Of a stretch of 64,000 bases of DNA, positions 7,635-22,772 are shown in pieces. The DNA comes from Archangium sp. (lineage in GTDB: Bacteria > Myxococcota > Myxococcia > Myxococcales > Myxococcaceae). The notes beneath the pieces were generated by a model. The model was not told the DNA's origin and did no database searches. It saw nothing but the letters and a program-made list of their open reading frames with translations. The stretch spans positions 1-64,000 of the forward strand of contig JALHMW010000015.1 of the NCBI GenBank assembly GCA_022843845.1. The letters run 5' to 3'. The position numbers were made by a program, and so were the translations under genes. Position 1 is the stretch's first letter. Each line of letters opens with the position of its first letter.

Positions 7635-8300
7635 ATGAAGGGTCTCATCGGTAAGAAGGTCGGCATGACGCAGGTCTTCAACGACGAAGGCAACGTCGTG
7701 CCTGTGACGGTCATCGACATCACCTCCTGCGAGGTCGTCGGGCACCGCACCATGGAGAAGGACCAGTACACGGCCGTCATCCTCGGCATCAAGGACGCCA
7801 AGCCCAAGCACCTGACCAAGGCGCAGGCGGGCAACTTCAAGAAGGCGGGCGCCAACCCCAAGCGCATCGTTCGCGAGTTCCGCGTCGACGCTGCAGATCT
7901 GGCGAACTTCACGATCGGTCAGCCGGTGAACGCGGGCGCGCTCTTCAAGAAGGGCGAGCTGGTCGACGTCACGGGCATCACCAAGGGCCGTGGCTTCCAG
8001 GGCGTCGTCAAGCGCTGGGGCTTCCGCGGCTTCGGGCAGACCCACGGTACGCACGAGTACCGCAAGCACCCGGGCGCCATCGGTCAGCGCAAGACGCCGG
8101 GCCGCGTGTACCCGAACAAGAAGCTCCCCGGTCACTACGGCGTGGAGCAGGTGACGGTGCAGAACCTGCTCGTCGCCGACGTGCTCGCCGACAAGGGCAT
8201 CATCCTCATCAAGGGCGGCGTCGCCGGCCACAATGAGGCCCTCGTCGTCGTGAAGCCTTCGATCAAGACGGCCCTGCGCGCGAAGCACGGCAAGAAGTAA
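7635..8300 (+). CDS. rplC: 50S ribosomal protein L3
   Basis: A 221-residue ribosomal protein L3, which binds 23S rRNA near the peptidyl-transferase centre and starts 50S assembly. The N-terminal MKGLIGKKVGMTQVF, the central GRGFQGVVKRWGF, and HPGAIGQRKTPGRVYP with its conserved Gln are typical. AGAGAAAG lies upstream of the ATG. No other ribosomal protein gene is adjacent, although rplC normally sits in the S10 operon after rpsJ. It may be a relocated gene or an additional copy. The next gene on the strand begins 16 bp later. Confidence 0.95.
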   Translation: MKGLIGKKVGMTQVFNDEGNVVPVTVIDITSCEVVGHRTMEKDQYTAVILGIKDAKPKHLTKAQAGNFKKAGANPKRIVREFRVDAADLANFTIGQPVNAGALFKKGELVDVTGITKGRGFQGVVKRWGFRGFGQTHGTHEYRKHPGAIGQRKTPGRVYPNKKLPGHYGVEQVTVQNLLVADVLADKGIILIKGGVAGHNEALVVVKPSIKTALRAKHGKK

Positions 8301-8316: not shown

Positions 8317-10128
8317 ATGCGCGGGATGCAATCACCGGCACCGTTGATCCGCGCGCTCGCCATCGGACTCGTCTCACTGCTCGCGGGGTGCAGCCCCACC
8401 ACGCGAGTGACCCTGCTCAACCTCGGCGACGCCTGTACTCCAGGAGACACGTTCGCCGAGTGTCGTGACGGCCTGTGCATTGCGCTCGACAGCCAGTCGG
8501 GCTTTTGCACCAGCCAGTGCACCGACACCTGCCCCGACGGCTTCGTCTGCGAAGGCGCGGGTCGCTTCGGCCGCATTTGCAAGGCGCTCAAGGGCTGCAA
8601 GACGAACGTCGACTGCCCTGCCGGCCACACCTGCAACCCCGAGACGGGGAACTGCTTCATTCAGGTGTCGCGCGCGCTGTGTTCTCCCTGTCAGGACGTT
8701 TCCCAGTGCCCCACGGGCGGCACCTGCTTCAAAGCCATCGGTTCGGGAGAGCAGTTCTGCACCGGGCCCTGTGGCGCTGCGGATGCGTGCCCGTCGGGCT
8801 CGTCGTGCCGCGAGATTCCCGCCGGTCGCGACAACGCCCTCATCAAGCAGTGCGTGCCCGCGAACGAGACCTGCAACGCCGGCCGCGGCCTCTGTGATGC
8901 CTGCGCAGGCGACGACGAGTGCGGCGGCCCGTTCGACCTGTGCGTGCGCAACATCGTCTCAAACGAGACCTTCTGCGGCCGCGACTGCAACCCCGCCAAG
9001 AACGTCTGCCCGATGGCTGGCTGCGATCCCACCTCGCTCGACAACGCGCAGAACCCCGAGTGTCCGTCGGGCTTCTCGTGCGTCAACCTCAAGTCGCCGG
9101 CAGCCGAAGCAGGGAAGGGCCCGTACCAGTGCGTGCCCAACTCGAACACCTGCAGGGGCTACTGCGACCCGGCGCGCGATCTCGGCCAGCTCTCGAACCA
9201 GTGCGGTATCGGCCGGCTCTGTCAGGCCGGCACCTGCCAGCCCGCGCTCGATGGGCGCCAGTGCTCACCGTGCAGCAACAACGATGACTGCCGGCGTGGC
9301 GGGTTCACCGAGAACCGCTGCATCGTCAACGACTGCCCGAGCTGCCCCTTCAAGGGCGAGTCGTTCTGCTCGACCCCGTGCCTCGACGACAACGCCTGCG
9401 TGCGCTCGTACGGCACCGGCTTCGTCTGCAAGGACGTGACGGACCCGACCGGCCCGACGCGGAAGTACTGCATGCCGCAGCGCGGCTCCTGCAAAGGCGG
9501 GCTCAAGCGCCTCGGAGAAGACTGCAACGCGCAGGGCGCCTTCGACTGCTTGACCGGCGTGTGCGTGAAGGCGGGCGTCAACGCGTTCTGCTCGAACACC
9601 TGCACGCTCGACAGCCAGTGCGGAGATACGCGCTACCGCTGCTGCGAGTCCTCTCCCAACGGCTACGACTGCTCGCCCGAGAAGCGCACGGCGACGGGGC
9701 CTGCCAGTGGCTCCGGCGTGTGCGCTCCCATCGGCGGCCTCTTCGGAGACGACTGCACACCTGGCCGGCCTCCCTGCCAGTCGGGCACCTGCCTCGATCT
9801 CGGCACTGCCCGGGTCTGCAGCGTGACGTGCCCGACCGGCACCTGTCCCATGGGCTTCGCCTGCCGCAAGGCGCAGCGAACCAGCGCGTCGGATCAGACC
9901 GTCGACGTCTGCTTCCCCTCGGGCGGCGGCGGTGCTGGAGCCAGCTGCACCTTCGGCCCGGCCGCCTGCGAGACGGGCCTCTGCATTCGCAAGGACTCAG
10001 GCCCCATCTGCACCCAGCCCTGCACGTCGGACGCTGAATGCCCGATGCAGTGGATCTGCGACACCCTGGCGACGGTCGACGGCAAGTCGGTTCAGGCCTG
10101 TCTGCCACCCGCCCTCCAGGAAGGCTGA
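8317..10128 (+). CDS. Cysteine-rich lipoprotein (77 Cys), candidate surface component
   Basis: A 603-residue lipoprotein with lipobox LLAGC (Cys25). By direct count it has 77 cysteines, about one in eight residues, in irregular repeats of the form C-x4-6-C-P-x-G-x-x-C, such as CPDGFVC, CPAGHTC, CPSGSSC and CPMGFAC. Such spacing implies many disulfides and an extracytoplasmic, probably cell-surface location. It lies immediately upstream of the vWA lipoprotein and the Glt-type genes, the place where gltK (a lipoprotein gene) occurs in M. xanthus. I infer a link to that machinery but cannot assign it to GltK. GGGAGA precedes the ATG. Confidence 0.8.
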   Translation: MRGMQSPAPLIRALAIGLVSLLAGCSPTTRVTLLNLGDACTPGDTFAECRDGLCIALDSQSGFCTSQCTDTCPDGFVCEGAGRFGRICKALKGCKTNVDCPAGHTCNPETGNCFIQVSRALCSPCQDVSQCPTGGTCFKAIGSGEQFCTGPCGAADACPSGSSCREIPAGRDNALIKQCVPANETCNAGRGLCDACAGDDECGGPFDLCVRNIVSNETFCGRDCNPAKNVCPMAGCDPTSLDNAQNPECPSGFSCVNLKSPAAEAGKGPYQCVPNSNTCRGYCDPARDLGQLSNQCGIGRLCQAGTCQPALDGRQCSPCSNNDDCRRGGFTENRCIVNDCPSCPFKGESFCSTPCLDDNACVRSYGTGFVCKDVTDPTGPTRKYCMPQRGSCKGGLKRLGEDCNAQGAFDCLTGVCVKAGVNAFCSNTCTLDSQCGDTRYRCCESSPNGYDCSPEKRTATGPASGSGVCAPIGGLFGDDCTPGRPPCQSGTCLDLGTARVCSVTCPTGTCPMGFACRKAQRTSASDQTVDVCFPSGGGGAGASCTFGPAACETGLCIRKDSGPICTQPCTSDAECPMQWICDTLATVDGKSVQACLPPALQEG

Positions 10129-10223
10129 GCGCACGCCCTGGTTTCTCACCGGCTGAGACCTTGTTTTTCTGGCTGTTTTTTCCGTAGGTGGGTGTGCTAG
10201 CACCGCGCACCTTTCCGACCCCG

Positions 10224-11678
10224 ATGCGTGCGTCTGCTGTCAAGCTGCTGGTCCTCCTGGCTTCGCTCGGCGTGGCGGTTTCGGCGTGTCAGGATCGCCA
10301 GAGAACACGGCGCGTCCTCGAGGCTTTCGTCGTCGTTCCGGGGACTCCGAGCGTCGACGAGAAGGCGCCGCAGGTCGACACGGATCCCACGCGCGCGACC
10401 GACACCTTCTCGGTCAACGTGCCTCGCCAGTGCGACACGTTCACCCAGCTCTCCGTGCGCAAGGTCGACATCCTCTGGGTCGTCGACTCGTCGGGCTCGA
10501 TGGGGCCCAAGCAGCAGCGGCTCGCCGCCAACTTCCAGGGCTTCATCAACCAGCTCGTCGCCGCGATGCCGCCGATCGACTTCCACATCGCCGTCACCAC
10601 CACCGACTCCGACGATCCTGCGACGCGCGGCCGGCTGCGTCAGTGGAGCCTGGGCGCCCTGCGCGACGACTTCATCTCGTGTGCTCCCGACATGCAGGGC
10701 ACGGTGATTTGCAACACGGGCGGCAACACCGCGACTGCCGTCATGGCCTTCAATCAGATGGCGCAGGTCGGCACTGCTGGCAGCCCCCAGGAGCGAGGAC
10801 TCTTCGCGGCGTACCTGGCCCTCACGAACCCACTCAACCTCTCGACCGACGCGGTGGTTCGTTTCGTCCGCCCCGAGGCCGCGCTGTACGTGGTGTTCGT
10901 CTCCGATGAAGACGATGCGTCGTGCACGCCGTTGACCCGCCAGCCGGTCTGCACCGCCGACCCGGGCTGCCGTTGCGCGAACGATCAGATCCTCACCGCC
11001 GCTGGCAACTGGGGCTCGACCGAGTACTTCACGCGCTTCTTCGAGACGTACAAAGGCTATGGCAACGGCGACGCAGTGGCGGTCGCTGCGATCACCGCGA
11101 TCGACCCCGACGCTGGAGTGCCTTCGCAGTTCGGCGACCCGAGCCCTCACGTCGGCTGCTGCCGCAACCAGCGCGATCCGGACGCGGGCTGTCCGACGAG
11201 CGGCACCAACGACGGTGGGCTCGAGATCGCCTACTTCGGCAGCCGCTACGTGCAGGTCGCCGCGCAGACGGGTGGGGTGGCGGTGGACATCTGCCAGAAC
11301 GACTTCTCGGGAGCGCTGGCGTCGCTCGGCTTCTCGGCCTCAGGGCTGCGTCGCGAGTTCCGCCTCACGCGTGGCCCCGACGTGCGGCCGCTCAACGGCC
11401 TGGCGCGAGGGCTCGAGGCCTTCGTCTCGCCTCCGACTTCGATGATGTGCATGGTCGATGGGAACTGCCCCGTCGATCAGTTCTGCCGAAACGGCCGCTG
11501 TGCGCGGCGCGTCGAGGTGCGTACCGATGGTCCGACGAATGGTGCGCAGTACGTGCAGTGCGATCTCGCGGGCCTTCGCAACATGGTCCGCTTCGAGGGC
11601 ACGTCGGTGCCCGAGTCCTTGAGCACGGTCGAGGTCTGTTACGACGTGCTCGCGAATTTCCAGACGACCTGTCCTTAG
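10224..11678 (+). CDS. von Willebrand A-domain lipoprotein, CglB-like
   Basis: A 484-residue outer-membrane lipoprotein candidate. The ATG at 10224 gives a signal peptide with lipobox VSAC (Cys22). A vWA domain follows at about 80-290, with strand VDILWVVDSSGSMG, whose DSSGS (88-92) is an intact MIDAS metal-binding motif, and a later strand YVVFVSDEDDASC. The C-terminal part is Cys-containing. In M. xanthus the vWA lipoprotein CglB is the gliding adhesin held by the GltA/B/C/H/K outer-membrane complex. Here the gene ends only 12 bp before the first Glt-type beta-barrel gene, suggesting the adhesin and its platform are co-expressed. CglB identity is inference from domain and context. Confidence 0.78.
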   Translation: MRASAVKLLVLLASLGVAVSACQDRQRTRRVLEAFVVVPGTPSVDEKAPQVDTDPTRATDTFSVNVPRQCDTFTQLSVRKVDILWVVDSSGSMGPKQQRLAANFQGFINQLVAAMPPIDFHIAVTTTDSDDPATRGRLRQWSLGALRDDFISCAPDMQGTVICNTGGNTATAVMAFNQMAQVGTAGSPQERGLFAAYLALTNPLNLSTDAVVRFVRPEAALYVVFVSDEDDASCTPLTRQPVCTADPGCRCANDQILTAAGNWGSTEYFTRFFETYKGYGNGDAVAVAAITAIDPDAGVPSQFGDPSPHVGCCRNQRDPDAGCPTSGTNDGGLEIAYFGSRYVQVAAQTGGVAVDICQNDFSGALASLGFSASGLRREFRLTRGPDVRPLNGLARGLEAFVSPPTSMMCMVDGNCPVDQFCRNGRCARRVEVRTDGPTNGAQYVQCDLAGLRNMVRFEGTSVPESLSTVEVCYDVLANFQTTCP

Positions 11679-11690
11679 AGCCGAGGTGCC

Positions 11691-12476
11691 ATGAGCGTTC
11701 GAAATGTGTTCCAGGTGAGTGCGCTGTCGCTGGTGATGCTGGCCAGCAGCGCGTGGGCCCAGTCGGCAGAGGACGAGGCGGAGCTCGTCGAGAAGGTGGC
11801 GGTGCGCAACCGCCTCTTCAACGTCGCGAACCGCTGGGAGGTCGGCGGCAACGTCGGCTTCACGCTGCTCCCGCGGCTGACCGATCACTACAACTTCAAC
11901 GTGTCGGTCGGGTACAACGTCGCCGAGTGGCTCGCCGTCGAGCTCCGCGCCGGGTACGCCTTCTCACGGCAGACGTCGCTCGCCGACCAGGTGAAGCAGG
12001 CGTTCCTGACGCAGATGGGCTTGTCGCGCATCAACGACTTCACCGACCTCTGGCAGATGGGTGTCAACGGCGTCGTCGGCGTTCGGTTTCAGCCGATCTA
12101 CGGCAAGCTGAACCTGCTCGCCGAATTGCCCGTGCACTTTCAGCTCTACTTGTGGGCGGGCGGCGGCGCTGGCTTGTTCAGTCGCGAGTCGCTGCTCATC
12201 TGTCTGCAGCGCACCGGCAGTGGCTGTGGCCAGTACTACACCGAGACCAAGGTCAGCCCCATCGTCTCTCTGGCGCTCGGGTTCCGGTTCTTCATCGCCG
12301 ACAAGCACGCCGTTCGACTCGAGGCGCGCACCTGGTCGTTCCTCGACTCGTACTTCGTCAACGTCGACCGCGCGAACGTCAGCGCGGCGAACCCCACGGC
12401 TGGCGGCATGTCGTCGCCCAACGCGGGTGTCACGACCATCAGCCAGATCGATCTCGGCTACAGCTTCGTCTTCTGA
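11691..12476 (+). CDS. gltB: Outer-membrane beta-barrel protein, GltB/NfsA-like
   Basis: A 261-residue secreted protein (signal MSVRNVFQVSALSLVMLASS, cleavage after AWA). Its alternating pattern fits an eight-or-more-stranded barrel of the myxobacterial Glt/Nfs type, for example VGGNVGFTLLPRLTDHYNF and LAVELRAGYAF. It ends in YSFVF, a C-terminal aromatic beta-signal for insertion by BAM. In M. xanthus the homologous pair GltA/GltB forms the outer-membrane platform of the gliding complex, and NfsA/NfsB the equivalent for spore-coat assembly. The choice of GltB over GltA rests on gene order (gltK-gltB-gltA-gltC). It is 14 bp upstream of the second barrel gene. Confidence 0.75.
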   Translation: MSVRNVFQVSALSLVMLASSAWAQSAEDEAELVEKVAVRNRLFNVANRWEVGGNVGFTLLPRLTDHYNFNVSVGYNVAEWLAVELRAGYAFSRQTSLADQVKQAFLTQMGLSRINDFTDLWQMGVNGVVGVRFQPIYGKLNLLAELPVHFQLYLWAGGGAGLFSRESLLICLQRTGSGCGQYYTETKVSPIVSLALGFRFFIADKHAVRLEARTWSFLDSYFVNVDRANVSAANPTAGGMSSPNAGVTTISQIDLGYSFVF

Positions 12477-12490
12477 GGACGTCCAAAACC

Positions 12491-13600
12491 ATGCGCACGA
12501 CTCTCCTCCTCGCTGTTGTGATGTTCCTCGCCAGCACCGCCACTGCGGCGGTGCCCGCGGTCGCTCCTTCGCTCCTCCTGACCCAGGCGTCTGGCGCTCC
12601 GACGCCAGCGGCCGATGACGACGAAGACGACCCGGTGCCCACGCCAGACGCGAAGCCTGATGCGCCGGCCACCACGCCGACCACTCCGGCGGCTCCCACC
12701 ACGCCTGCCGCGACCACGGCTCCGGCGGCGGGCCCGGCGGCTCCCGCTCCGGCCGAGTCGATGAAGCTCGTCAACGGTGCGCCGCTCTTCAACCCCAACG
12801 TCGGCGTGCACATCGTCGAGCAGAAGCGCTTCTCTGACTCGGGTCGCTTCGAGGTGACCCTGTACCCGGTGTCGGTGCAGGTGAACGGCAAGTTCACTCA
12901 GCACTTCGGCACCATGGGTCAGCTCACGTACCACCTGCAGGAGAACTTCGGCCTGATGATCACGGGCGGCGGCAACTGGTTCAACTCCGAGTCCTCGCTC
13001 AATGGCGAGCTCGTCGAGAAGGCCCGCGTCGAAGCCCAGGCTGCCTCGTCCCTGCTGTGGACATGGGGCGTGATGGGCGGCGTCGAGGTGACGCCGTTCT
13101 ACGGCAAGTTCGCCTTCTTCGGAGACACGCTGGCCCAGTTCTCGATCGTGCTCAGCGGCGGCGCCGGCATCGGCGGCACTCGTCACCAGCTCAAGCCTGA
13201 GAGCGCGCGCCCCGACGGCTCCATCTCTCCTGCAACGTATGGCGACACCGGCTCCCGCTTCATGGCCGGCCTCGGCGCGGGCTTCCGTCTGCAGCTCGGC
13301 CAGCGCTTCGCCTTCCGGCTCGAGGTTCGCGACGTCGTCTACACGGCGCGCGTCGAGCGGGTGAATGGCTGTGGCTTCGATGACCTTCGCGCGATGGACA
13401 ACGCCCTGCGTGGTGGCCGCCCGGTCACCAGCGCGATGGTTGGTGATGGCTGCCGCGTCGGCACCTTCGACGGCAACGATCCCGAGACGGGGCTCCGGCG
13501 CTCCAACGACGTTCCGCTCGCCCTCGGCCTCGTCCGCAACCCGTCGTCGGACGTGCTCAACAACGTCGGCCTCTACGCCGGCATCTCGTTCCTGTTCTGA
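12491..13600 (+). CDS. gltA: Outer-membrane beta-barrel protein, GltA/NfsB-like
   Basis: A 369-residue protein. A signal peptide (MRTTLLLAVVMFLASTATA) is followed by a low-complexity linker rich in Asp, Pro, Thr and Ala (about 35-90), then a barrel domain with strands such as RFEVTLYPVSVQVNGKF and RFAFRLEVRDVVYTARV. It ends in ISFLF, again a BAM-type signal. The same reading frame is open far upstream, but the ATG at 12491 is the one with a signal peptide. It is tightly spaced between the other barrel and the TPR gene. The linker could span peptidoglycan or bind a periplasmic partner. The assignment rests on order and barrel type. Confidence 0.75.
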   Translation: MRTTLLLAVVMFLASTATAAVPAVAPSLLLTQASGAPTPAADDDEDDPVPTPDAKPDAPATTPTTPAAPTTPAATTAPAAGPAAPAPAESMKLVNGAPLFNPNVGVHIVEQKRFSDSGRFEVTLYPVSVQVNGKFTQHFGTMGQLTYHLQENFGLMITGGGNWFNSESSLNGELVEKARVEAQAASSLLWTWGVMGGVEVTPFYGKFAFFGDTLAQFSIVLSGGAGIGGTRHQLKPESARPDGSISPATYGDTGSRFMAGLGAGFRLQLGQRFAFRLEVRDVVYTARVERVNGCGFDDLRAMDNALRGGRPVTSAMVGDGCRVGTFDGNDPETGLRRSNDVPLALGLVRNPSSDVLNNVGLYAGISFLF

Positions 13601-13615
13601 TCGGTGACCACCACA

Positions 13616-15154
13616 ATGACTCGCGCACTCACGCTCGTTGCTCTGCTCACCGGGTTCGTCGCCTCGGCGCAGGACCTGGCCACCTACAACAAGGCGCTGT
13701 CGGCCTATAACGGTGGCTCCTTCGAGGACTCGGCGAAGCTCTTCTACGACGTCTACAACACCACCACCGACAACGACCTGAAGCTGAAGGCCGAGTACTA
13801 CCTGGCCTCGAGCTTCCAGCGGCAGAACCTGCCGTTCACGGCGTTCGTCTTCTACAGCCCGATCCTGAAGGCCGGCCCGGCGCACCCGTTCCACGGCAAG
13901 GCCGTCGAGGCGCTCGTCACGCTGCAGGAGCAGCTCAACGACGATTACCTGATCCCCTCGCAGCTCAACAACCTGTACGACAAGTTCGCCGAGGCGTGGG
14001 CGACGCTGCCGCTCGAGGTGCTCTCGCGCATCAACTACCTCATCGGCCGCATCGCGCACCGCAAGGGCAAGCTCGACGAGGCCAAGCAGTTCCTCGAGGC
14101 CGTTCCCGACACCAGCCAGGTCTACGCGAAGTCGCTCTACCTGCAGGGCATCGCGCTCTCCGACCCTCGCTATCCCGCGACCAGCGAAGACGAGAAGCGC
14201 AAGCACCAGGAAGAGGCCGTCGAGATCTTCGAGAAGGTGCTGAAGATCGACCCGCGCGCCAAGATGATGGACCTCGCCGAGATCCAGCAGCTCGCCAACC
14301 TGGGCTTGGGCCGCGTGCAGTACGGCCTGGGCAACTTCGACAAGGCCGTGCGCGCCTACGAGAAGATTCCCCGCTTCTCGAAGTACTGGGATCAGTCGCT
14401 GTTCGAGAACGGCTTCGCGCGGTTCCAGAACGACGACTACGGCGGCGGGCTCGGCTCGCTCCAGGCCCTCTACGCGCCGCAGTTCGCCGGAGCCTTCCAG
14501 CCCGAGTCGTACGTGCTGACGTCGACGATCTACTACTTCGCCTGCCTCTACGAAGAGTCGAAGGCTGCGCTCGTCGAGTACGAGAACATCTACCTGCCGC
14601 AGGCCGAGGCGCTGAAGAAGGTCGTCGAGGGCGAAGCGAAGGACAACACCTTCTACTTCCAGCTCGTCGAGGCGAACGATCCCGACAAGCTCCCCAAGCC
14701 CGTCCTCAACTGGGTGCGCTCGAACGAGCGCATGCTCGGTCTCTTCTCGATGCTCAAGGCCATCGACGCCGAGAAGGCCACCATCGACAGCATTCAGCCG
14801 TGGAAGAGCGCGAAGCTCTCGGCCGAGCTCATCTCGTACCTCGATCAAAACCGGGCGACGCTCGAGCAGGTTGCCGGTCAGACCGCCAAGAACCGCATCC
14901 AGGAGGCCTACCGCACCATCAAGGGCTTCGCAGACCAGGCCGAAATCATCCGCTTCGAGGTCGCCAAGGCCGAGAAGGAGTTCGCCGAGACCGGCAGCGA
15001 TCAGAGCTCTCTGCTCCGCAAGCAGACCCTCTACCGGCCGAAGATGCCCGCAGAGAACTGGAACTACTGGAAGTTCCAGGGCGAGTTCTGGCGCGACGAG
15101 ATCGGCTACTACCAGTACACGCTCAAGAAGGGCTGCCCGGTCGGCAAGAACTGA
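13616..15154 (+). CDS. gltC: Periplasmic TPR protein, GltC/NfsC-like
   Basis: A 512-residue secreted protein with signal MTRALTLVALLTGFVASAQ and no lipobox. The mature protein is almost entirely helical with TPR-like pairs: DLATYNKALSAYNGGSFED at the N-terminus, KLDEAKQFLEAVPDTSQVY in the middle, and LGLGRVQYGLGNFDKAV near 230. GltC in M. xanthus is a periplasmic TPR protein under the GltA/GltB barrels. I choose the ATG at 13616, since the GTG at 13604 only adds MTTT. The gene closes the first tight gene group; a terminator-like hairpin follows 58 bp after the stop. Confidence 0.78.
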   Translation: MTRALTLVALLTGFVASAQDLATYNKALSAYNGGSFEDSAKLFYDVYNTTTDNDLKLKAEYYLASSFQRQNLPFTAFVFYSPILKAGPAHPFHGKAVEALVTLQEQLNDDYLIPSQLNNLYDKFAEAWATLPLEVLSRINYLIGRIAHRKGKLDEAKQFLEAVPDTSQVYAKSLYLQGIALSDPRYPATSEDEKRKHQEEAVEIFEKVLKIDPRAKMMDLAEIQQLANLGLGRVQYGLGNFDKAVRAYEKIPRFSKYWDQSLFENGFARFQNDDYGGGLGSLQALYAPQFAGAFQPESYVLTSTIYYFACLYEESKAALVEYENIYLPQAEALKKVVEGEAKDNTFYFQLVEANDPDKLPKPVLNWVRSNERMLGLFSMLKAIDAEKATIDSIQPWKSAKLSAELISYLDQNRATLEQVAGQTAKNRIQEAYRTIKGFADQAEIIRFEVAKAEKEFAETGSDQSSLLRKQTLYRPKMPAENWNYWKFQGEFWRDEIGYYQYTLKKGCPVGKN

Positions 15155-15212
15155 CCGCAGAACCGTTCGGGCGTGGCCGGCGTCCAAGTCGGCCGAAACG
15201 CTGACGTTTCAC

Positions 15213-15244
15213 GGGTGCTGGCTCCGGCTGGCACCCTTTCTTTC
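15213..15244 (+). terminator. Terminator-like hairpin between gltC and gltD
   Basis: GGGTGC (15213-15218) and GCACCC (15231-15236) form a 6-bp GC-rich stem followed at once by TTTCTTTC. The loop is 12 nt. It sits 58 bp after gltC and 65 bp before gltD. It may end the gltB-A-C transcript or attenuate read-through into gltD. Confidence 0.5.
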
Positions 15245-15266
15245 GATCAAACGCGTGGTGTAGGTT
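15238..15266 (+). promoter_or_regulatory. Possible promoter for gltD
   Basis: TAGGTT at 15261-15266 resembles a -10 element, with TTCTTT 17 bp upstream as a poor -35. The start codon of gltD is 42 bp further on, with AAGGAG properly spaced. The weak -35 and the overlap with the terminator T-run keep confidence low. Confidence 0.25.
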
Positions 15267-15308
15267 CCGCGCGCTTTCGCCGATTTGATTCATCTGAAGG
15301 AGCCTCAC

Positions 15309-18300
15309 ATGAAGTTCCACGCCCGCCTGCTCTCCGTTTCGGTCGCTGCGCTGTTGCTGATTCCCACGACGGCTCCCGCGCAAGCGAAGAAGGGCGCCAA
15401 GCCCGCCGCGCCTGCGAAGGCCGACCCGAAGGCCACCAAGGTCGACCCCAAGGCCGCCACTGCCGCCAAGAAGCCCGAGGAGCGGAAGGGCCCTGCGAAG
15501 CTCGACGCGCGCGGCGATCAGCCCAAGCTCGAGGACGTGGAGCGTGAGGCCGTCGCCGACAAGAAGCGCGACGAGCAGATCGAGTCGGCGAAGAAGATCA
15601 TCCCCAAGATCGAAGACGGCAACCCGCAGAAGTCCGAGCTGCTCTTCCAGCTCGCCGAGCTCTACTGGGACAAGTCGCGCTACCTGTACCGCCGCGAGAT
15701 GCTGAAGTTCTTCGAGCAGCAGAAGGAGATGGACGAGAAGAAGAACCGTGGCGAGAAGGTCTCGGAGCCGAAAGAAGATCACCGCGAGTCCGAGCTCTAC
15801 CGCTCCGAGACGATGCGGTTGTACGAGACGATCCTCCGCGAGTACCCCTCCTACGAGCGCAAGGACGAGGTGCTCTTCAACCTCGCCTACAACCTCTACG
15901 AGACGGGCAAGCGTGACGGCGCCGTGAAGCGCTACGAGGAACTGCTCAAGTCGTACCCGGGCTCGAAGTTCGTGCCCGACACGTACGTGCAGCTCGGCAA
16001 CCACTACTTCGACGTCGCCAACGTGCTCGAGAAGGCGCGCAGCTACTTCGAGAAGGCGTTCGCCACCACCAACCCGCGCATCCGGTCGTACTCGCTCTAC
16101 AAGCTGGCCTGGTGTGACTTCAACGCGGGCGAGCATGAGAAGGCGCTCAAGAAGCTGCAGGACACGGTCGCGCTGGCCGAGAAGAGCGGGGCAGGGAAGG
16201 AGCGCGTCTTCACCGATCTGAAGAACGAAGCGCTCCAGGACTCGGTGCGCATGTTCGTGCAGCTCAACCGCGCCGACGACGCCATCGCCTACTACAAGGC
16301 CAAGGCCGGCAAGAAGAAGCAGACCAGCCTCATCGGCAAGCTCGCCTACTCGCTCGCCGAGGCCGGTCACCACGACAACGCCATCAAGTCGTTCCGGTAC
16401 CTGCTCAACGACAACCCGAACTCCGAGGCGGCGCCCGAGTTCCAGCAGTCGGTCATCCGCTCGTACGAAGGCCTTCGCCAGCGCGACAACGTGAAGGCTG
16501 AAGTCAAGAAGCTCGCCGAGCTCTACCGGCCGGGGTCGAGCTGGTGGGAGGCCAACAAGTCGAAGAAGGACGTGCTCCGTGCCGGCTTCAACGTCGCCGA
16601 AGAGGCGATGCGCACGACCGTCACCGATTATCACAACGAGGCGCAGAAGACGAAGCAGGTCGTCACCTACCGCCTTGCCCGAGACATCTACAAGCAGTAC
16701 GTCGACGGCTTCGCCGCGTCAGAGGACGAGCAGTTCGTCTCGGACCACGCCTTCAACCTGAAGTTCTATTACGCCGAGATCCTCTGGGCCCTCGAGGAGT
16801 GGGAGAACGCCGCCACCCAGTACGATCAGGTGACCGCGTTCAAGGTTCCCGGCCGCCCCGACGCGAAGGAGATCGCCCAGGAGAAGTACCGCCAGACCGC
16901 CGCGTACAACGCGATGCTCTCGTACGACAAGCTGGTGAAGATCGAGCGCGGCGTGCTCCAGAAGACCGACCTCAAGGACGACAAGCTCGTCGAAGAGAAC
17001 AAGAAGAAGGACAAGGTCGAGAAGTCGAAGAAGGTCACCAAGCGCAGCATCAAGGAGCTCGAAGAGAAGCCGATCACCAAGTTCGAGCAGGCGCTGATCT
17101 CTGCGTGCGACAAGTACAACCAGCTGTACCCGAAGACGGCTGAAGAGGTCGACATCGCCTACCAGGCGGCCGTCATCTATTACGACAAGAACCACTTCGT
17201 CGAAGCCGCCCGCCGCTTCGGTGACATCATCAACCGCTACCCCGAAGAGGCCCGCTCGGCCGATGCCGCCGACCTCTCGATGGGCGTGCTCGAGGAGAAG
17301 GAAGAGTGGCTCGAGCTCAACAAGCTCGCCCGCATCTTCAAGGCCAACGAGAAGCTGATGAAGAAGGCCAAGCCCGACTTCGTGAGCCGCGTCGGCACCG
17401 TCGTCGAGGGCTCGCAGTACAAGTACATCGACGAGATCGTCTACAAGAAGGAGAAGGACACCAGGAAGGCGCGCGACCTCTTCCTCGAGTTCGTGAAGGA
17501 GTTCCCGAAGTCGAAGAACGCCTCACGCGCCATGGTCTACGCGATGGAGGTCTCTCGCGAAGCCAACGAGCAGGACAAGTCGATCGAGATCGGCGAGCGC
17601 ATCTTGAAGGAGTACCCGGACTCGATGTTCGACCTGCGTGTGAAGAACGGCCTCGCGTTCTTCTACGAGAAGGTCGCCAACTTCGAGAAGTCGGCCGCGA
17701 TGTACGAGAACTTCGTCGCCACCTACGACAAGGCCGCCGGTGACAAGGCGGTGGGGTTCGAGAACATCAAGGACCTGATCAAGAAGGAGAAGGAGGCGAA
17801 GGAGAAGGCCGACAAGGCGGCCAAGGCCGCGAAGAAGCCGCTCCCTGCCGAGGTCGCCGTCACCACCTATGCGATTCCGCCGAAGGATCCCGACGCGGCG
17901 GCGCTCAAGACCGAGCGTGAAGCGCAGATCAAGGCCGCGAACGACTGGGTCGCAGACGCCCAGTACAACGCCGGCTTCTGGCACGAAGGCACCGGCAAGT
18001 TCGACAAGGCGCTCGTCGCGTACAACCGCTACGTCACGCGCTTCAAGGACAAGAAGGACGCTCCGGACATCGCGTACAACATCGGCCTCGTGCTGGAGAA
18101 GACCAACCAGCTCGCCGAGGCGACGAAGCACTACGACACGTACCTGACGACGTACGCGAAGGATCCGCGCGTCACGGACACGCGCAAGATCGACCTCAAG
18201 TACCGCCAGTTCCTCATCGCGCAGAAGCTGAAGGACTCGGCCGGCATGGACCGCCTCGCGAAGGACATCACCGCGTCGTTCCCGAAGCTCAAAGACGAAG

Positions 18301-18950
18301 AGAAGAAGAACGACCGCGCCATGCTTGCAGCCGCACACACGCGCTTCTTCCAGCTCGAGCCGACGTGGAACGCCTACCTCGCGCTCAAGCTGAAGAACTT
18401 TGCGACGTTCAAGAAGGACCTCGCCGACAAGCAGAAGAAGCTCACCGAGATGGCGAGCAGCTATACGCAGGTGCTTGAGACGGGGAACCCCGACTTCGGC
18501 ATCGCGGCGCTCACGCGCATCGGCCTGCTGTACTCCGATCTCGCCGTGAACCTCACCGACCTGCCCGATCCGAAGGGCTTCGACGAAGACCAGGTCGCGC
18601 TCTTCCGCGGCCAGCTCGAGGAGCAGTACATCTTCCCCCTCGAAGAGAAGGCCGTCGAGGCGCTCGAGAAGGCGCTCGGCAAGTCGAGCGAGCTGACGCT
18701 GTACACGGAGTGGACGCTGCTCGCGCAGGACAAGCTCAACAAGTACAAGCCCGGCAGCTACGGCAAGACGCGCGACGTCTCGTACCGTGGCAGCGAGTTC
18801 TTCGTGACGTCTGGCTTCGAGAAGCAGCCGCCCGCGAACGACGCGCCGCTTCCCACCGAGGCCGATGCGCCGAAGCCGGCGGTTGCGCCGACGCCTGCTC
18901 CCACCCAGCCCAGCGCCGCCGCCACGGGCGCCGGCGCCGGTAGCCGCTGA
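15309..18950 (+). CDS. gltD: Large periplasmic TPR protein, GltD (AgmU)/NfsD-like
   Basis: A 1213-residue secreted protein, about the size of AgmU/GltD of M. xanthus. AAGGAG seven bases before the ATG at 15309 fixes the start. A signal peptide ending TAPAQA is followed by a Lys/Ala/Pro-rich segment and then many TPR or TPR-like helix pairs along the chain. Examples are DEVLFNLAYNLYETGKRDG (about 195-215), EKALKKLQDTVALAEKSG, AYNAGFWHEGT-type units, and DIAYNIGLVLEKTNQLAEA (about 920-938). The C-terminus is Pro/Ala-rich. In M. xanthus this protein spans the periplasm and moves with the gliding complexes. It is the first gene of the second group (D-E-F-G). Confidence 0.85.
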   Translation: MKFHARLLSVSVAALLLIPTTAPAQAKKGAKPAAPAKADPKATKVDPKAATAAKKPEERKGPAKLDARGDQPKLEDVEREAVADKKRDEQIESAKKIIPKIEDGNPQKSELLFQLAELYWDKSRYLYRREMLKFFEQQKEMDEKKNRGEKVSEPKEDHRESELYRSETMRLYETILREYPSYERKDEVLFNLAYNLYETGKRDGAVKRYEELLKSYPGSKFVPDTYVQLGNHYFDVANVLEKARSYFEKAFATTNPRIRSYSLYKLAWCDFNAGEHEKALKKLQDTVALAEKSGAGKERVFTDLKNEALQDSVRMFVQLNRADDAIAYYKAKAGKKKQTSLIGKLAYSLAEAGHHDNAIKSFRYLLNDNPNSEAAPEFQQSVIRSYEGLRQRDNVKAEVKKLAELYRPGSSWWEANKSKKDVLRAGFNVAEEAMRTTVTDYHNEAQKTKQVVTYRLARDIYKQYVDGFAASEDEQFVSDHAFNLKFYYAEILWALEEWENAATQYDQVTAFKVPGRPDAKEIAQEKYRQTAAYNAMLSYDKLVKIERGVLQKTDLKDDKLVEENKKKDKVEKSKKVTKRSIKELEEKPITKFEQALISACDKYNQLYPKTAEEVDIAYQAAVIYYDKNHFVEAARRFGDIINRYPEEARSADAADLSMGVLEEKEEWLELNKLARIFKANEKLMKKAKPDFVSRVGTVVEGSQYKYIDEIVYKKEKDTRKARDLFLEFVKEFPKSKNASRAMVYAMEVSREANEQDKSIEIGERILKEYPDSMFDLRVKNGLAFFYEKVANFEKSAAMYENFVATYDKAAGDKAVGFENIKDLIKKEKEAKEKADKAAKAAKKPLPAEVAVTTYAIPPKDPDAAALKTEREAQIKAANDWVADAQYNAGFWHEGTGKFDKALVAYNRYVTRFKDKKDAPDIAYNIGLVLEKTNQLAEATKHYDTYLTTYAKDPRVTDTRKIDLKYRQFLIAQKLKDSAGMDRLAKDITASFPKLKDEEKKNDRAMLAAAHTRFFQLEPTWNAYLALKLKNFATFKKDLADKQKKLTEMASSYTQVLETGNPDFGIAALTRIGLLYSDLAVNLTDLPDPKGFDEDQVALFRGQLEEQYIFPLEEKAVEALEKALGKSSELTLYTEWTLLAQDKLNKYKPGSYGKTRDVSYRGSEFFVTSGFEKQPPANDAPLPTEADAPKPAVAPTPAPTQPSAAATGAGAGSR

Positions 18951-18977
18951 AATAGACGAGAGACCAAGGACCCGATC

Positions 18978-20369
18978 ATGAAGCTCCGAATCGCAGCCCT
19001 CAGCATCGTCGCCTCAGCCGCCTCGTTCACTGCGTGCGTCACTCCTGAAGTCGCCGAGAAGAAGGACGTCGTCGTCGCGCCGCCTCCGCCCCCGAAGGAG
19101 CCCAGCCCGAAGGAGAACTTCGACAAGGGCGTTGCCGCATTCGACGCCAACAACCTCGACGAGGCCAACGCACTCTTTACGAAGGTCGCGGAGAAGGTGC
19201 CGGCCAGCCTGGTGACTCAGTACAACCTCGCCGTCATCGCCGAGCGTCAGGGCCGCCTCACCGACGCGCAGGTCCGTTACGAGGCCGCGCACAAGATCGA
19301 CGGCAAGCACAAGCCGACGCTCCTCAACCTCGGCCGCGTCTACCGCCTGCAGGACAAGTTCGCCGAGGCGATCACCCTCTACGAAGAGGCGCTCAAGGAC
19401 AACGAGTTCGACGTCGAGCTCAACAACAACCTCACCGTCGCCTATCGCCTCGCGAAGAACTACGCGAAGGCCGAAGAGACCGCGCGCCGCGTGCTCTCAC
19501 GCACCAAGGACAACCCGGACGCGTACAAGAACCTCGCGCTCATCTACTTCGATCAGGGCAACTACCGCCTCGCGGAGTTCATCTCGGCCAACGCCAAGAA
19601 GCTCGATGACAAGGATCCCGGCGTCTACAACAACCTCGGCCTCATCTACCTGAAGCTCGACGAGAAGCGCCTCGCGCTCGCGCAGTTCCAGAAGGCCGTC
19701 ACGCTGAACAAGGACTTCGCGCCGAGCCTCTTCAACATCGGGGCGATGGCGCTGAGCTACCGCGACTACGTGACGGCCGAGAAGTCGCTCAGCCGCACCA
19801 CCGAGCTCGACCCGACCCGCTACGAGAACTTCCTCGCCTACGCCTGGTCGCTCGATGGCCAGAAGGGCAAGGACGCCAAGAAGGGCATCAAGGCCGGCGA
19901 GATCTTCGAGAAGGTGCTCTCGCTCAAGACCGATCAGAACGACGCGGTCTGCGGCGCTGCGTGGGCCTACGCGGCCGACAAGACGGGCTGGGACAAGGCG
20001 CTCGGCTTCTTCGAGAAGTGCAAGGGCCTGACGACGACGTCGGCCCAGGATCAGACCCTCATCGACAACAAGGTGAAGGGCATTCTCGCGATGCAGAAGT
20101 CGGGGCAGAAGGTCGAGCAGCCCGCGCCTGAGAAGCCCAAGGCGGCTCCGACCGGTGGCCCGTCGATGCTCGACAAGGCTGAGAAGGAAGCGGAGAAGGA
20201 CGCGCCTCCGCCGGCTGAAGGTGCTCCGGCGCCGGCTCCAGGTGCCACGCCGCCGCCTGCCGAAGCCCCCAAGACCGAGGCGCCCAAGGAAGAGGCCCCC
20301 AAGGCTGCCGCTCCGGCCGCCCCTGCAACTGCAGTTGACGCCGCGAAGCCCGAAGAGAAGAAGCCCTGA
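18978..20369 (+). CDS. gltE: TPR outer-membrane lipoprotein, GltE (AglT)/NfsE-like
   Basis: A 463-residue lipoprotein with lipobox FTAC (Cys20) and a Pro-rich spacer (APPPPPKEPSP). It carries a run of TPRs from about 45 to 340, for example TQYNLAVIAERQGRLTDAQ, PTLLNLGRVYRLQDKFAEA, PDAYKNLALIYFDQGNYRL and PGVYNNLGLIYLKLDEKRL. The last 100 residues are Pro/Ala/Glu-rich and probably disordered. AglT/GltE of M. xanthus is a TPR lipoprotein required for gliding, and NfsE is its sporulation counterpart. It starts 27 bp after gltD on the same strand. No Asp at +2 of the lipobox, consistent with outer-membrane sorting. Confidence 0.85.
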   Translation: MKLRIAALSIVASAASFTACVTPEVAEKKDVVVAPPPPPKEPSPKENFDKGVAAFDANNLDEANALFTKVAEKVPASLVTQYNLAVIAERQGRLTDAQVRYEAAHKIDGKHKPTLLNLGRVYRLQDKFAEAITLYEEALKDNEFDVELNNNLTVAYRLAKNYAKAEETARRVLSRTKDNPDAYKNLALIYFDQGNYRLAEFISANAKKLDDKDPGVYNNLGLIYLKLDEKRLALAQFQKAVTLNKDFAPSLFNIGAMALSYRDYVTAEKSLSRTTELDPTRYENFLAYAWSLDGQKGKDAKKGIKAGEIFEKVLSLKTDQNDAVCGAAWAYAADKTGWDKALGFFEKCKGLTTTSAQDQTLIDNKVKGILAMQKSGQKVEQPAPEKPKAAPTGGPSMLDKAEKEAEKDAPPPAEGAPAPAPGATPPPAEAPKTEAPKEEAPKAAAPAAPATAVDAAKPEEKKP

Positions 20370-20433
20370 TTCTCAGGTCTTGAGACGAATTCCGGGTGGC
20401 GCCGAACGTGGACACATCGGCGTCAAGGTGGGC

Positions 20434-20462
20434 TTCACAACGACTCACCAATCCCCTAGGGT
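20434..20462 (+). promoter_or_regulatory. Candidate sigma-70-type promoter upstream of gltF
   Basis: TTCACA (20434-20439) and TAGGGT (20457-20462) are separated by exactly 17 bp, within the 155-bp gap between gltE and gltF. It would allow gltF-gltG expression separate from gltD-gltE. Confidence 0.4.
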
Positions 20463-20484
20463 CCGCCAACTTTTCAGGAACCTG

Positions 20485-20511
20485 GCCCCTGCGACAGCTG
20501 TCCACAGGGGC
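20485..20511 (+). promoter_or_regulatory. Nested hairpin in the gltF leader
   Basis: GCCCCTG (20485-20491) pairs with CAGGGGC (20505-20511), and the 13-nt loop itself contains the palindrome GACAGCTGTC. The GGAGG ribosome-binding site of gltF begins only a few bases after the stem, so the structure could influence translation of gltF. No known riboswitch class is recognised. Confidence 0.4.
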
Positions 20512-20524
20512 ACACGGAGGCAGC

Positions 20525-20788
20525 ATGCAGCGTTTTCTCGTGGTGATTGCAGTGGTGATGGCCGTGGCGGCGCCCTCGTTCGCTGAGGACAAGGTGATTC
20601 GCGAGGCCGACCGCGTCGTGACGCGGAAGAAGACCGTCATCGACTTCACCGACGTCGCCGTCGAAGGCGAGCTCACCAAGCCCGAAGGCAGCTACTCGGT
20701 CAGCAAGAAGAAGACGACATTCCGCACGCTGATCAAGGTGCGCGACAACTTCAACCCTGAGCTGCAGAAGTCCGTCGACAACCTCTGA
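20525..20788 (+). CDS. gltF: Small periplasmic protein, GltF-like
   Basis: An 87-residue protein with a clear signal peptide (MQRFLVVIAVVMAVAAPSFA) and GGAGG six bases before the ATG. The 67-residue mature part, beginning EDKVIREADRVVTRKKTVI, is charged and has no recognised domain. Position and size are the basis of the GltF call: in M. xanthus gltF lies between gltE and gltG, and the Nfs locus has a gene at the same place. A hairpin and candidate promoter precede it. Uncertainty concerns the name, not whether it is coding. Confidence 0.65.
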   Translation: MQRFLVVIAVVMAVAAPSFAEDKVIREADRVVTRKKTVIDFTDVAVEGELTKPEGSYSVSKKKTTFRTLIKVRDNFNPELQKSVDNL

Positions 20789-20793
20789 AACAA

Positions 20794-20819
20794 GCCGTCA
20801 GGCCGGACGGCGTCTCTTT
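20794..20819 (+). terminator. Weak terminator/attenuator between gltF and gltG
   Basis: GCCGTC (20794-20799) pairs with GACGGC (20806-20811), followed by GTCTCTTT. It begins five bases after the gltF stop codon. The T-rich tract is interrupted, so partial termination or RNA processing is more likely than a full stop. Confidence 0.35.
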
Positions 20820-20859
20820 CACTTCAACTTCACCCAGCAGTCGCGTCACCGAGGTCCCC

Positions 20860-22716
20860 ATGGCGAACAAGGTCACCTTCGAGATCACGAGCCCTGACGG
20901 TAAGGTCTCCGAGTCCACCTCCGAGCTCGAGAGCATCATCGTCGGCTCCGGCGATTCCGCGAACGTGAAGGTCGCGGATCCGAAGGTCTCGAACCTCCAC
21001 TGCATGATCAAGGTCAGCAACGACGGCAACGTCGTCGTGATGGATCTTGGCTCTGCTGAGGGCACGAAGATCTCGAACGAGACCGTCAAGGAGAAGCCAA
21101 TCACCTCGGGCGACGTCCTCGAGATCGGCGGCACGAAGGTGAAGATCGTCTTCACCGGCGCCACGGCGGAAGCAAAGGCCGAAGCCCCCACGAAGGTGGA
21201 AGCCAGGGTCGAAGCCCCGGCGAAGGTGGAAGCCAAGGCCGACAAGAAGGACAAGAAGAAGAAGGACAAGAAGGACGCTCCTCGCGCCCTCGCTGGCACT
21301 GGCAAGAACGCCGCGGGCCTCTTCACCGAGCCCCTGCCGGCTGAAGCCATTCCCACCGAGACCGAGAAGGTCCTCCAGGTCGCGCTGCTCTGGGGCGACA
21401 CCCTCATCAACGTTCAGCACTTCGGCGAAGGCATGCCCGTCACCGTCGGCGAGAACGCCTCGGCCCGCTTCAACGTCTTCTCGCCCGGCCTCGGCGACCT
21501 CTTCACCCTCGCTCAGAGCAAGGGCAGCGGCGCGATCGTCAACGTCCCCAGCGAAGCGGGCGTCGTCGTTTCGACCAAGGGCGACAGCCACAAGTCCAAG
21601 GAGCAGCTCAAGGGAGAAGGCAAGCTCAAGGCCGCTGACGGTGGCGTTCGTGCCGATGCGGTCGAGATCGGCCTCCACGACCGAGCGCAGGTCTCGTTCG
21701 AGCAGGTCGCCTTCATCGTGCGCTACGTGCGCCCGAGCTCGGCCATCACCCTCAACACGCTCGATGAGCACGACTTCACGTTTTTCAAGATCACGAGCAT
21801 CTGCGTCATGGCCTTCATCGCGCTCGTCGCGGCCATGGTGATCACGCCGCTGGGTGAGGGCGGGCAGGGTGACGACATCTTCGGCAACCCGTCGAAGTAC
21901 GTGAAGATGGTCGTGAAGCCCGAGAAGAAGCAGGAAGTGAAGAAATTCCAGGACAAGTCGGGCGTGCAGGAAGGCGAGAAGGCCAAGGAGAAGGAAGGCA
22001 AGTTCGGTAAGCAGGACGCGAAGAAGGCCGAAGCCGACCCTTCGAAGAAGGGCGCTCCTGTCGTCGACGTCAACAAGCGCGAAGAAGACCGCAAGAAGGT
22101 CAGCTCGCTGATGGCCGGCATGTTCGCCGGTGGCGCGTCGTCGAACGTCTTCGGGCCCGGCGGTCTCGGCACCGGCATCAACAACGCGCTCGGCGGCCTC
22201 CAGGGCGGCGCAGGCGTCGGTGATGCGCAGGGCGTCGGCGGTCTCGGCTCGCGCGGCGCTGGCTCCGGTGGTGGTGGCAACGGCCTTGGTCTCGGCGGTC
22301 TCGGCACCAAGGGCGGCGGTCGCGGCGCTGGTGGGTACGGCTCGATCGACCTCGGCGGCAAGGGCAAGTCGGGCACGCGCATCGTCCCCGGCAAGACGAC
22401 CGTCGTCGGCGGCCTCGACAAGGACGTCATCATGAAGGTCATCAAGCGCCACCAGAACGAGATCAAGTTCTGCTACGAGCAGGAGCTCCAGAAGAACCCG
22501 GCGCTCGCCGGCAAGGTCGCGGTCGCGTGGACGATCGATCCCGCTGGCGCCGTCTCTGAAGCGACTGTTTCGGAGAGCTCGATCAGCAACGCCAACGTCG
22601 AGAGCTGCATCGTGCAGCGCATTCGCCGCTGGAAGTTCCCCGAGCCTGACGGCGGCGGCATCGTGAACGTCACCTTCCCGTGGATCTTCAAGGCCGCAGG
22701 CGACGAGAGCGAGTAA
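20860..22716 (+). CDS. gltG: FHA-TM-TonB-like tail inner-membrane protein, GltG (PglI)/NfsG-like
   Basis: A 618-residue inner-membrane protein. Residues 1-100 form an FHA phosphopeptide-binding domain (SIIVGSGDSANVKVADPKVS, DLGSAEGTKIS), which is cytoplasmic. A Lys-rich linker and a second beta-rich part lead to one transmembrane helix at about 309-331 (ICVMAFIALVAAMVI). The periplasmic part has a Lys/Glu-rich helix, a Gly-rich stretch at about 440-510, and a C-terminal TonB-like AgmX/PglI tail (about 520-615) with its two conserved cysteines (IKFCYEQEL and VESCIVQRI). PglI/GltG is proposed to connect the motor to outer-membrane parts. It is the last gene before a strong terminator. Confidence 0.87.
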   Translation: MANKVTFEITSPDGKVSESTSELESIIVGSGDSANVKVADPKVSNLHCMIKVSNDGNVVVMDLGSAEGTKISNETVKEKPITSGDVLEIGGTKVKIVFTGATAEAKAEAPTKVEARVEAPAKVEAKADKKDKKKKDKKDAPRALAGTGKNAAGLFTEPLPAEAIPTETEKVLQVALLWGDTLINVQHFGEGMPVTVGENASARFNVFSPGLGDLFTLAQSKGSGAIVNVPSEAGVVVSTKGDSHKSKEQLKGEGKLKAADGGVRADAVEIGLHDRAQVSFEQVAFIVRYVRPSSAITLNTLDEHDFTFFKITSICVMAFIALVAAMVITPLGEGGQGDDIFGNPSKYVKMVVKPEKKQEVKKFQDKSGVQEGEKAKEKEGKFGKQDAKKAEADPSKKGAPVVDVNKREEDRKKVSSLMAGMFAGGASSNVFGPGGLGTGINNALGGLQGGAGVGDAQGVGGLGSRGAGSGGGGNGLGLGGLGTKGGGRGAGGYGSIDLGGKGKSGTRIVPGKTTVVGGLDKDVIMKVIKRHQNEIKFCYEQELQKNPALAGKVAVAWTIDPAGAVSEATVSESSISNANVESCIVQRIRRWKFPEPDGGGIVNVTFPWIFKAAGDESE

Positions 22717-22737
22717 CGCCCGTCGTATGACGGAGTG

Positions 22738-22772
22738 AACGGCGTGTCTCCGCGAGGGGGCACGCCGTTTTC
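22738..22772 (+). terminator. Rho-independent terminator after gltG
   Basis: AACGGCGTG (22738-22746) and CACGCCGTT (22761-22769) form a perfect 9-bp stem, and the right arm runs into GTTTTC. It lies 21 bp after the gltG stop codon and separates the Glt-type locus from the acyl-CoA dehydrogenase gene. Confidence 0.85.

Follow-up and report, generated by a model that had tools for sequence, protein, structure and literature searches.

Our analysis of a 64,000-nucleotide stretch of DNA from Archangium sp. (assembly GCA_022843845.1, contig JALHMW010000015.1, positions 1 to 64,000; hereafter the window) revealed a cluster of nine genes, every one on the forward strand, at positions 8317–22716. The cluster is almost certainly an Nfs locus, its genes nfsA-B-C-D-E-F-G being predicted orthologs of the nfs genes of Myxococcus xanthus. 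Placed between nfsA and rplC, the gene for ribosomal protein L3, are two further genes, here called the head, which encode a Cys-rich lipoprotein and a lipoprotein with a predicted vWA domain and metal-ion-dependent adhesion site (MIDAS). With slightly better than even confidence, we explain the whole as an rplC-linked Nfs machine that, together with its head, would move a MIDAS adhesin. The nfs locus itself is already known; the head and the pattern of its loss seem to be new, since in searches of open-licence PMC articles no title or abstract beginning described an nfs locus with a vWA or a Cys-rich lipoprotein. The initial annotation of this DNA had recognized a locus of the Glt/Nfs type headed by adhesin-like lipoproteins, and both gene positions and profile searches bear this out, with scores below the cut-offs of the Glt equivalog models.

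Assignment of the locus to Nfs

In a tree of 40 NfsD and GltD proteins, the window protein and that of the named M. xanthus AM003 locus (L133) fall in one clade (Shimodaira–Hasegawa-like approximate likelihood ratio test, SH-aLRT, 100), apart from M. xanthus GltD; the tree comes from a quick search with a single protein, contains some long branches and has no independent root. Trees of the machine proteins had been proposed along with the initial annotation, and the one built here, of NfsD, places the window with Nfs; the head is not part of the published nfs neighborhood. The published sizes of NfsA to NfsH are 294, 442, 512, 1202, 499, 94, 682 and 200 aa (PMC2875238). Those of the proteins at locus L078 (273, 441, 512, 1203, 499, 87, 680 and 200 aa) agree with them, and the gene order is therefore read as nfsA-B-C-D-E-F-G; the conservation of this predicted order across the named loci rules out chance as its source. 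Some details of the initial annotation had to be revised: it had ordered the barrels B-A, started with the vWA lipoprotein and ended the locus at 22772, whereas by orthology nfsA precedes nfsB, the Cys-rich gene precedes the vWA gene and the last gene ends at 22716. Its statement that the Nfs paralogs are contiguous agrees with the published nfs locus (PMC2875238, PMC3858216), a paralog of glt whose motor, AglRQS, is encoded at another site (PMC3858216, PMC3169522). In the window, nfsA to nfsG are likewise contiguous; nfsH is present but lies 64 kb off on the opposite strand (C15:86897–87493), and its product is 65% identical to the copy in a relative that keeps nfsH in place. The nearest relatives (L095, L096 and L104) are also without an adjacent nfsH; their genomes each contain a single nfsH match, which seems to lie on a different contig.

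Could the locus instead be an unsplit Glt gliding locus, or belong to a third family of machines, as had also been suggested? The genes do resemble Glt, and the head lipoproteins were not found at the nfs loci of cultured fruiting bacteria. However, the window proteins miss the NCBIfam equivalog cut-offs for GltC (218 bits against 450), GltE (110 against 225), CglF (65 against 90) and GltG (334 against 650), whereas proteins from contigs C36 and C5 of the same genome exceed them (919, 564, 132 and 920 bits, respectively), as do CglC at C36 (111, cut-off 60) and CglE at C5 (132, cut-off 70). We take cglE to be gltH and cglC to be gltK. Neither gltH-I-J nor gltK was found within the window locus. 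Both readings were rejected on the NfsD tree, the missed cut-offs and the separate Glt clusters in this genome; we consider either very improbable. If it is taken to mean a distinct family, the suggestion fails; if it is taken to mean a distinct function, it becomes part of the explanation favored here.

A search of the genome for additional copies, also proposed initially, returned four further glt-like clusters, on contigs C36, C5, C46 and C4, and the genome thus has a separate set of Glt genes, split as in M. xanthus. The C36 cluster comprises gltB-A-C with a divergent cglC, and the C5 cluster gltD-E-F-F-G with cglE and a large tetratricopeptide repeat (TPR) protein; a 621-aa protein at the gltJ position on C5 had no NCBIfam match. 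In the 40-protein tree, the C5 protein groups with M. xanthus GltD, and those of C4 and C46 each with another M. xanthus copy. The two gltF-like genes of the C5 cluster, which is of the G1 type, stand side by side (L035 11146–11788), and the nfs locus L170 has two nfsF-like open reading frames (ORFs). In the C4 cluster (L041, G000:C4:8000–26000), glt-like genes in the order C-D-E-F-G are followed by an outer-membrane polysaccharide export (OPX) gene that groups with an M. xanthus exporter and is probably, by exclusion and place, WzaB of the biosurfactant polysaccharide (BPS) pathway. Outside the clusters lie a lone NfsB-like protein (L044 4647–5510, G000:C44; phmmer 1e-60 to the window NfsB, no Pfam match) and a lone GltG/NfsG-like protein (L036 11849–13024, G000:C21; 7e-75 to the window NfsG), the latter with no other glt genes in the stretch examined.

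How old is the separation of Nfs from Glt? It has been spoken of as a recent duplication (PMC3858216). Among 60 genomes sampled from the order, NfsD of the window type (matches at E 1e-119 or better) occurs in families f1, f2, f3, f4, f6, f7, f8 and f9 and was not found in f5, and rplC-linked nfs-type loci are present in a metagenome-assembled genome (MAG) labelled Bdellovibrio (L145) and in L148 and L167. Because window-type NfsD spans so many families and because of these rplC-linked loci, there is a strong hint, in a tree that is not independently rooted, that the split is older than a recent duplication. For glt-type machines, an ancestral core with later recruitment has been argued (PMC3169522).

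Table 1. Features of the nfs locus and its surroundings in the window (TM, transmembrane segment).
Feature	Position	Strand	Evidence
rplC (ribosomal protein L3)	7635..8300	+	PF00297 2e-19; ends 16 bp before head
Cys-rich lipoprotein, head gene 1, 603 aa, 77 Cys	8317..10128	+	lipobox LAGC25
vWA/MIDAS lipoprotein, head gene 2, putative surface adhesin, 484 aa	10224..11678	+	lipobox VSAC22; NF052240 partial match
nfsA, outer-membrane barrel	11691..12476	+	TIGR04565 127 bits, cut-off 60; shares synteny with nfsA of M. xanthus (L133)
nfsB, outer-membrane barrel	12491..13600	+	TIGR04565 73.5 bits, cut-off 60
nfsC, periplasmic TPR protein	13604..15154 (start 13604 or 13616)	+	GltC model 218 bits, 2e-64, cut-off 450
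Terminator-like hairpin between nfsC and nfsD, 10 bp stem, T-rich tail	15213..15236	+	
nfsD, long periplasmic TPR protein	15309..18950	+	NfsD tree: clade with M. xanthus NfsD, SH-aLRT 100
nfsE, TPR lipoprotein	18978..20369	+	GltE model 110 bits, 1e-31, cut-off 225; lipobox FTAC20
nfsF, small secreted protein	20525..20788	+	CglF model 65 bits, 4e-18, cut-off 90
nfsG, FHA / TM / TonB-like tail, predicted motor contact	20860..22716	+	GltG model 334 bits, 1.7e-99, cut-off 650; myxo_SS_tail 122 bits, cut-off 40

The head genes and their descent

Residues D88-x-S90-x-S92, T127 and D228 of the vWA protein are invariant in all 16 aligned proteins. Its AlphaFold2 model (mean predicted local distance difference test score, pLDDT, 72.5; predicted template modeling score, pTM, 0.72) aligns with integrin I domains over 186 residues (Z 15.5, root-mean-square deviation 3.1), and the top Foldseek matches are integrin beta headpieces, at low TM-scores. 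As modeled, the protein has a vWA/integrin I fold with a MIDAS; MIDAS and lipobox agree with the nature of an adhesin, the fold alone showing no function. Pfam VWA did not match the window protein, a PDB sequence search returned nothing, and the score against the NF052240 equivalog (61.5 bits, 7e-17) is below the cut-off of 700. The genome encodes, on C25, a separate 404-aa vWA lipoprotein of what we take to be CglB size, which groups with one from M. xanthus; a PDB sequence search with it gave one weak row, taken as chance. Most cysteines of the Cys-rich protein are conserved among its orthologs, which adjoin the vWA gene. It matched no Pfam or NCBIfam family, and its AlphaFold2 model is poor (pTM 0.28).

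We compared 77 named loci, with genes outside the window called by a simple codon-usage script and their starts hence approximate. A vWA gene is present at 18 of the 62 loci at which the head could be judged and absent from 44, the other 15 being set aside. At the ORF level, the Cys-rich gene accompanies the vWA gene in 18/18 head loci (in L157 as a fragment at the contig end), and no judgeable cultured fruiting bacterium has a head at its nfs locus. In an NfsD tree of 57 rows including the window, which omits five judgeable loci without a full-length NfsD gene call, the head pattern needs five changes. The window and 13 MAGs make up a group of fourteen head rows, whose sister group consists of 26 rows without a head, namely some MAGs and all cultured isolates that the tree contains (Myxococcus, Corallococcus, Pyxidicoccus, Archangium, Hyalangium and Citreicoccus); the head loci outside the 14-row group are L146, L154, L157, L170 and L171. 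A typical Myxococcus-type nfs locus also occurs in L129; because the title of this record is Comamonas sp. KCTC 72670, it probably bears a wrong label or is a mixture.

In a tree from which L185 and L193, without the searched motif, were left out, the nfs-linked vWA proteins are monophyletic (support 99/98). For the same 18 rows, the vWA and NfsD trees have 12 of 15 splits in common, with a Mantel r of 0.94 that none of 2000 permutations reached; the main conflict concerns the place of L170, which has a very long branch. Such agreement is the pattern that common descent with losses would give, parsimony alone being unable to separate gain from loss. We also weighed a horizontal gain of the head close to the tips; the two trees mostly agree. 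Judged by these trees, the head is anciently linked to the rplC-linked Nfs machine. The ancestral arrangement conceived in the initial annotation fits the head, which several families have and the fruiting clade lacks.

One may also regard the head genes as mere neighbors of rplC, carried on its transcript and functionally untied to Nfs, given that they lie as close to rplC as to nfsA and that many nfs loci do without them. We consider this quite unlikely: all nfs-linked vWA proteins belong to a single clade co-evolving with NfsD, the order of head and nfsA is kept where an extra gene separates rplC from the head (L154) and where no rplC is in view (L171), and rplC and nfs remain together where the head is gone.

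A model for the machine and its relation to sporulation

In the model that we favor, a proton-driven motor of the AglRQS type would engage NfsG at the inner membrane, NfsD, NfsE and NfsC would transmit force across the periplasm, and the NfsA and NfsB barrels would keep the MIDAS lipoprotein on the cell surface, in the way that Glt keeps CglB; the Cys-rich lipoprotein may be its stalk or partner. The machine may thereby move a metal-dependent adhesin over the cell surface, either to glide or to grip prey or particles. The fruiting clade, in which the gap after rplC is wide, would have lost the head, and Nfs would there have come to serve spore-coat polymer transport. That the adhesin is the cargo or load of this Nfs machine has, in our estimate, an even chance. 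A machine dragging a surface protein, as the initial annotation envisaged, is likewise our preferred, unproven explanation of the head, held at evenly balanced confidence. In M. xanthus, AglR contacts both NfsG and GltG, and Nfs moves around the spore (PMC3858216); Glt recruits the vWA protein CglB and retains it at the surface (PMC13104615).

The motor would be encoded elsewhere in the genome. None of its four MotA/ExbB matches is on the window contig, in line with the early observation that no AglRQS genes lie nearby. An ExbB-ExbD-ExbD operon on another contig, C14, would represent an AglRQS-type motor, whose use by Nfs we infer. A flagellar cluster with Pfam matches to FlhA, FlhB, FliM, FlgE and MotA is present at L037 (G000:C2:213000–231000), in a genome of the family code that includes Myxococcus; the well-known members of that family are not known to have flagella.

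What does the proximity to rplC imply? The L3 gene is present at 53 of the 62 judgeable loci. Because the head starts 16 bp past rplC in the window, it is probably expressed with growth, and not only with sporulation. At head loci, the automatic distance from rplC to the next called gene is 11–480 bp, or 3445 bp in L124, where the head genes are uncalled; the called start is late in L095, L102 and L146, which have candidate starts 15–43 bp past rplC. In cultured fruiting bacteria, the gap between rplC and nfsA measures 257–400 bp (386 bp in M. xanthus L133; L110 has no rplC in view), and in M. xanthus a promoter has been placed upstream of nfsA, with expression late in development (PMC2875238). 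Terminator-like hairpins similar to that of the window were found in the gap between nfsC and nfsD in 11 of 18 other head loci versus 2 of 38 no-head loci, a contrast inflated by relatedness, and terminator-like sites in the whole region show little excess (16 versus 12.4 expected). In G034, the one genome examined in this respect, the S10 operon runs from S10 to a gene read as L4 and is without an L3 gene (L287 14714–15989), so the nfs-linked rplC is probably the genome's L3.

Does the locus serve sporulation? Nfs orthology speaks for the alternative of a spore-coat machine as in M. xanthus, in which both lipoproteins would help to bind coat polymer to the spore surface. WzaS (MXAN_3225) is a spore-coat OPX protein (PMC9603273), and we identified it in M. 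xanthus as a 190-aa protein adjoining a 381-aa one. The vWA query matches at E 1e-25 in 31 of 145 genomes of the order. Within f1 (96 genomes, 21 with vWA and 75 without, counted by hand from search rows), 19 of the 21 genomes with vWA have no WzaS ortholog, some of them rated 95–100% complete, whereas 68 of the 75 without vWA have one and 7 do not; the call is clear, best matches being either about 1e-57 or better, with at least 59% identity, or 4e-29 or worse. No WzaS ortholog was found in the host assembly, itself of f1 (4.95 Mb, 85.8% complete). In each of the 20 f1 genomes checked for linkage, the vWA gene is located at rplC, at nfs genes or at both; G107, counted as positive from a short contig-end match, was outside this check. 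G022, one of the seven f1 genomes without both markers, has no close NfsD, and the vWA match of G020, outside f1, is not at an nfs locus. A strict exclusion of head and WzaS, first read from six genomes, was weakened by the order-wide tally to a tendency in one family. Both the missing WzaS and the 16 bp behind rplC, hardly space for a promoter of the head's own, are indirect evidence against a spore-coat need or sporulation induction of the window locus, and we regard the spore-coat machine as unlikely. The simplest story would have an ancestor with both vWA and WzaS, followed by loss of the adhesin in the fruiting bacteria and of WzaS inside the head clade.

Several points weigh against the growth-phase adhesin machine that we prefer. 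Seven no-head loci also have rather short gaps between rplC and nfsA (90–177 bp), and co-transcription of the head with rplC is presumed from their spacing. Surface exposure of the head lipoproteins and their contact with NfsA and NfsB are predictions from the genes, and the window vWA protein stands in its own clade, apart from the family of CglB-size vWA lipoproteins, which no tool named CglB. Head and WzaS exporter are not exclusive: two of the 21 f1 genomes with vWA (G104 and G105) also have WzaS, and vWA occurs together with a WzaS-like protein in other families (G001, G002, G006, G008, G025, G030 and G045). G104, G105 and several such outgroup genomes, with a head and either WzaS or a WzaS-like exporter, speak for the spore-coat alternative. 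WzaS-like proteins also occur in f5, where 0 of 24 genomes have vWA; WzaS is therefore an imperfect marker of sporulation, and through shared ancestry the contrast between head and WzaS reflects very few independent evolutionary events.

Implications and comparison with known systems

Nfs serves as the textbook case of a gliding machine that was put to new use in sporulation. Should an older form of Nfs come with an adhesin of its own and be linked to growth, this story would change direction, with the spore-coat role arising late, and what Nfs moves would become testable via one gene pair. We tentatively suggest, at somewhat less than even confidence, that in much of the uncultivated Myxococcaceae Nfs is no sporulation apparatus and instead conveys a MIDAS adhesin during growth, as a second Glt–CglB-like machine that was taken over by M. 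xanthus sporulation after loss of the adhesin genes, Nfs and Glt having parted before the order diversified and not through a recent duplication. It would be a second natural case, beside Glt–CglB, of a Glt-like machine paired with an integrin-like protein, useful for the study of cargo selection by outer-membrane barrels, and the head and its loss pattern would open the origin of the spore-coat machine to tests.

The closest known counterpart, nfsA-H of M. xanthus (MXAN_3371–3378), shares with the window the gene order from A to G, protein sizes, orthology in the tree, contiguity and a locus without motor genes. The window differs in the two lipoprotein genes between rplC and nfsA, in the 16 rather than 386 bp that follow rplC, in the remote nfsH and in the terminator-like hairpin after nfsC. 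With Glt (GltA-K) and CglB (PMC13104615, PMC4488436), it has in common the predicted kind of envelope-spanning machine and a vWA lipoprotein that would sit at its surface end. It is set apart by its separate clade, the unreached Glt cut-offs, a locus without gltI, gltJ or gltK, and a vWA protein that is not of the CglB-size family.

The head protein itself recalls Bd0875, a MIDAS-family adhesin of Bdellovibrio (NF052240), which by its published description is likewise a lipoprotein and has its vWA/MIDAS domain set into a small beta domain. The window protein falls far short of the model's cut-off (61.5 bits versus 700), and the accessible part of the Bd0875 description mentions no tie to an Nfs locus. 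Finally, the G1 and G2 glt homologs are reported to be grouped in Anaeromyxobacter (PMC3169522). In two f5 genomes (L219 and L220), we observed one contiguous glt/nfs-like locus, which falls in the Glt clade of the NfsD/GltD tree and has no vWA, Cys-rich or L3 match within 20 kb. The grouped glt genes of Anaeromyxobacter share contiguity with the window locus but differ from it in belonging to the Glt clade and in having no vWA, Cys-rich or L3 match over that distance.

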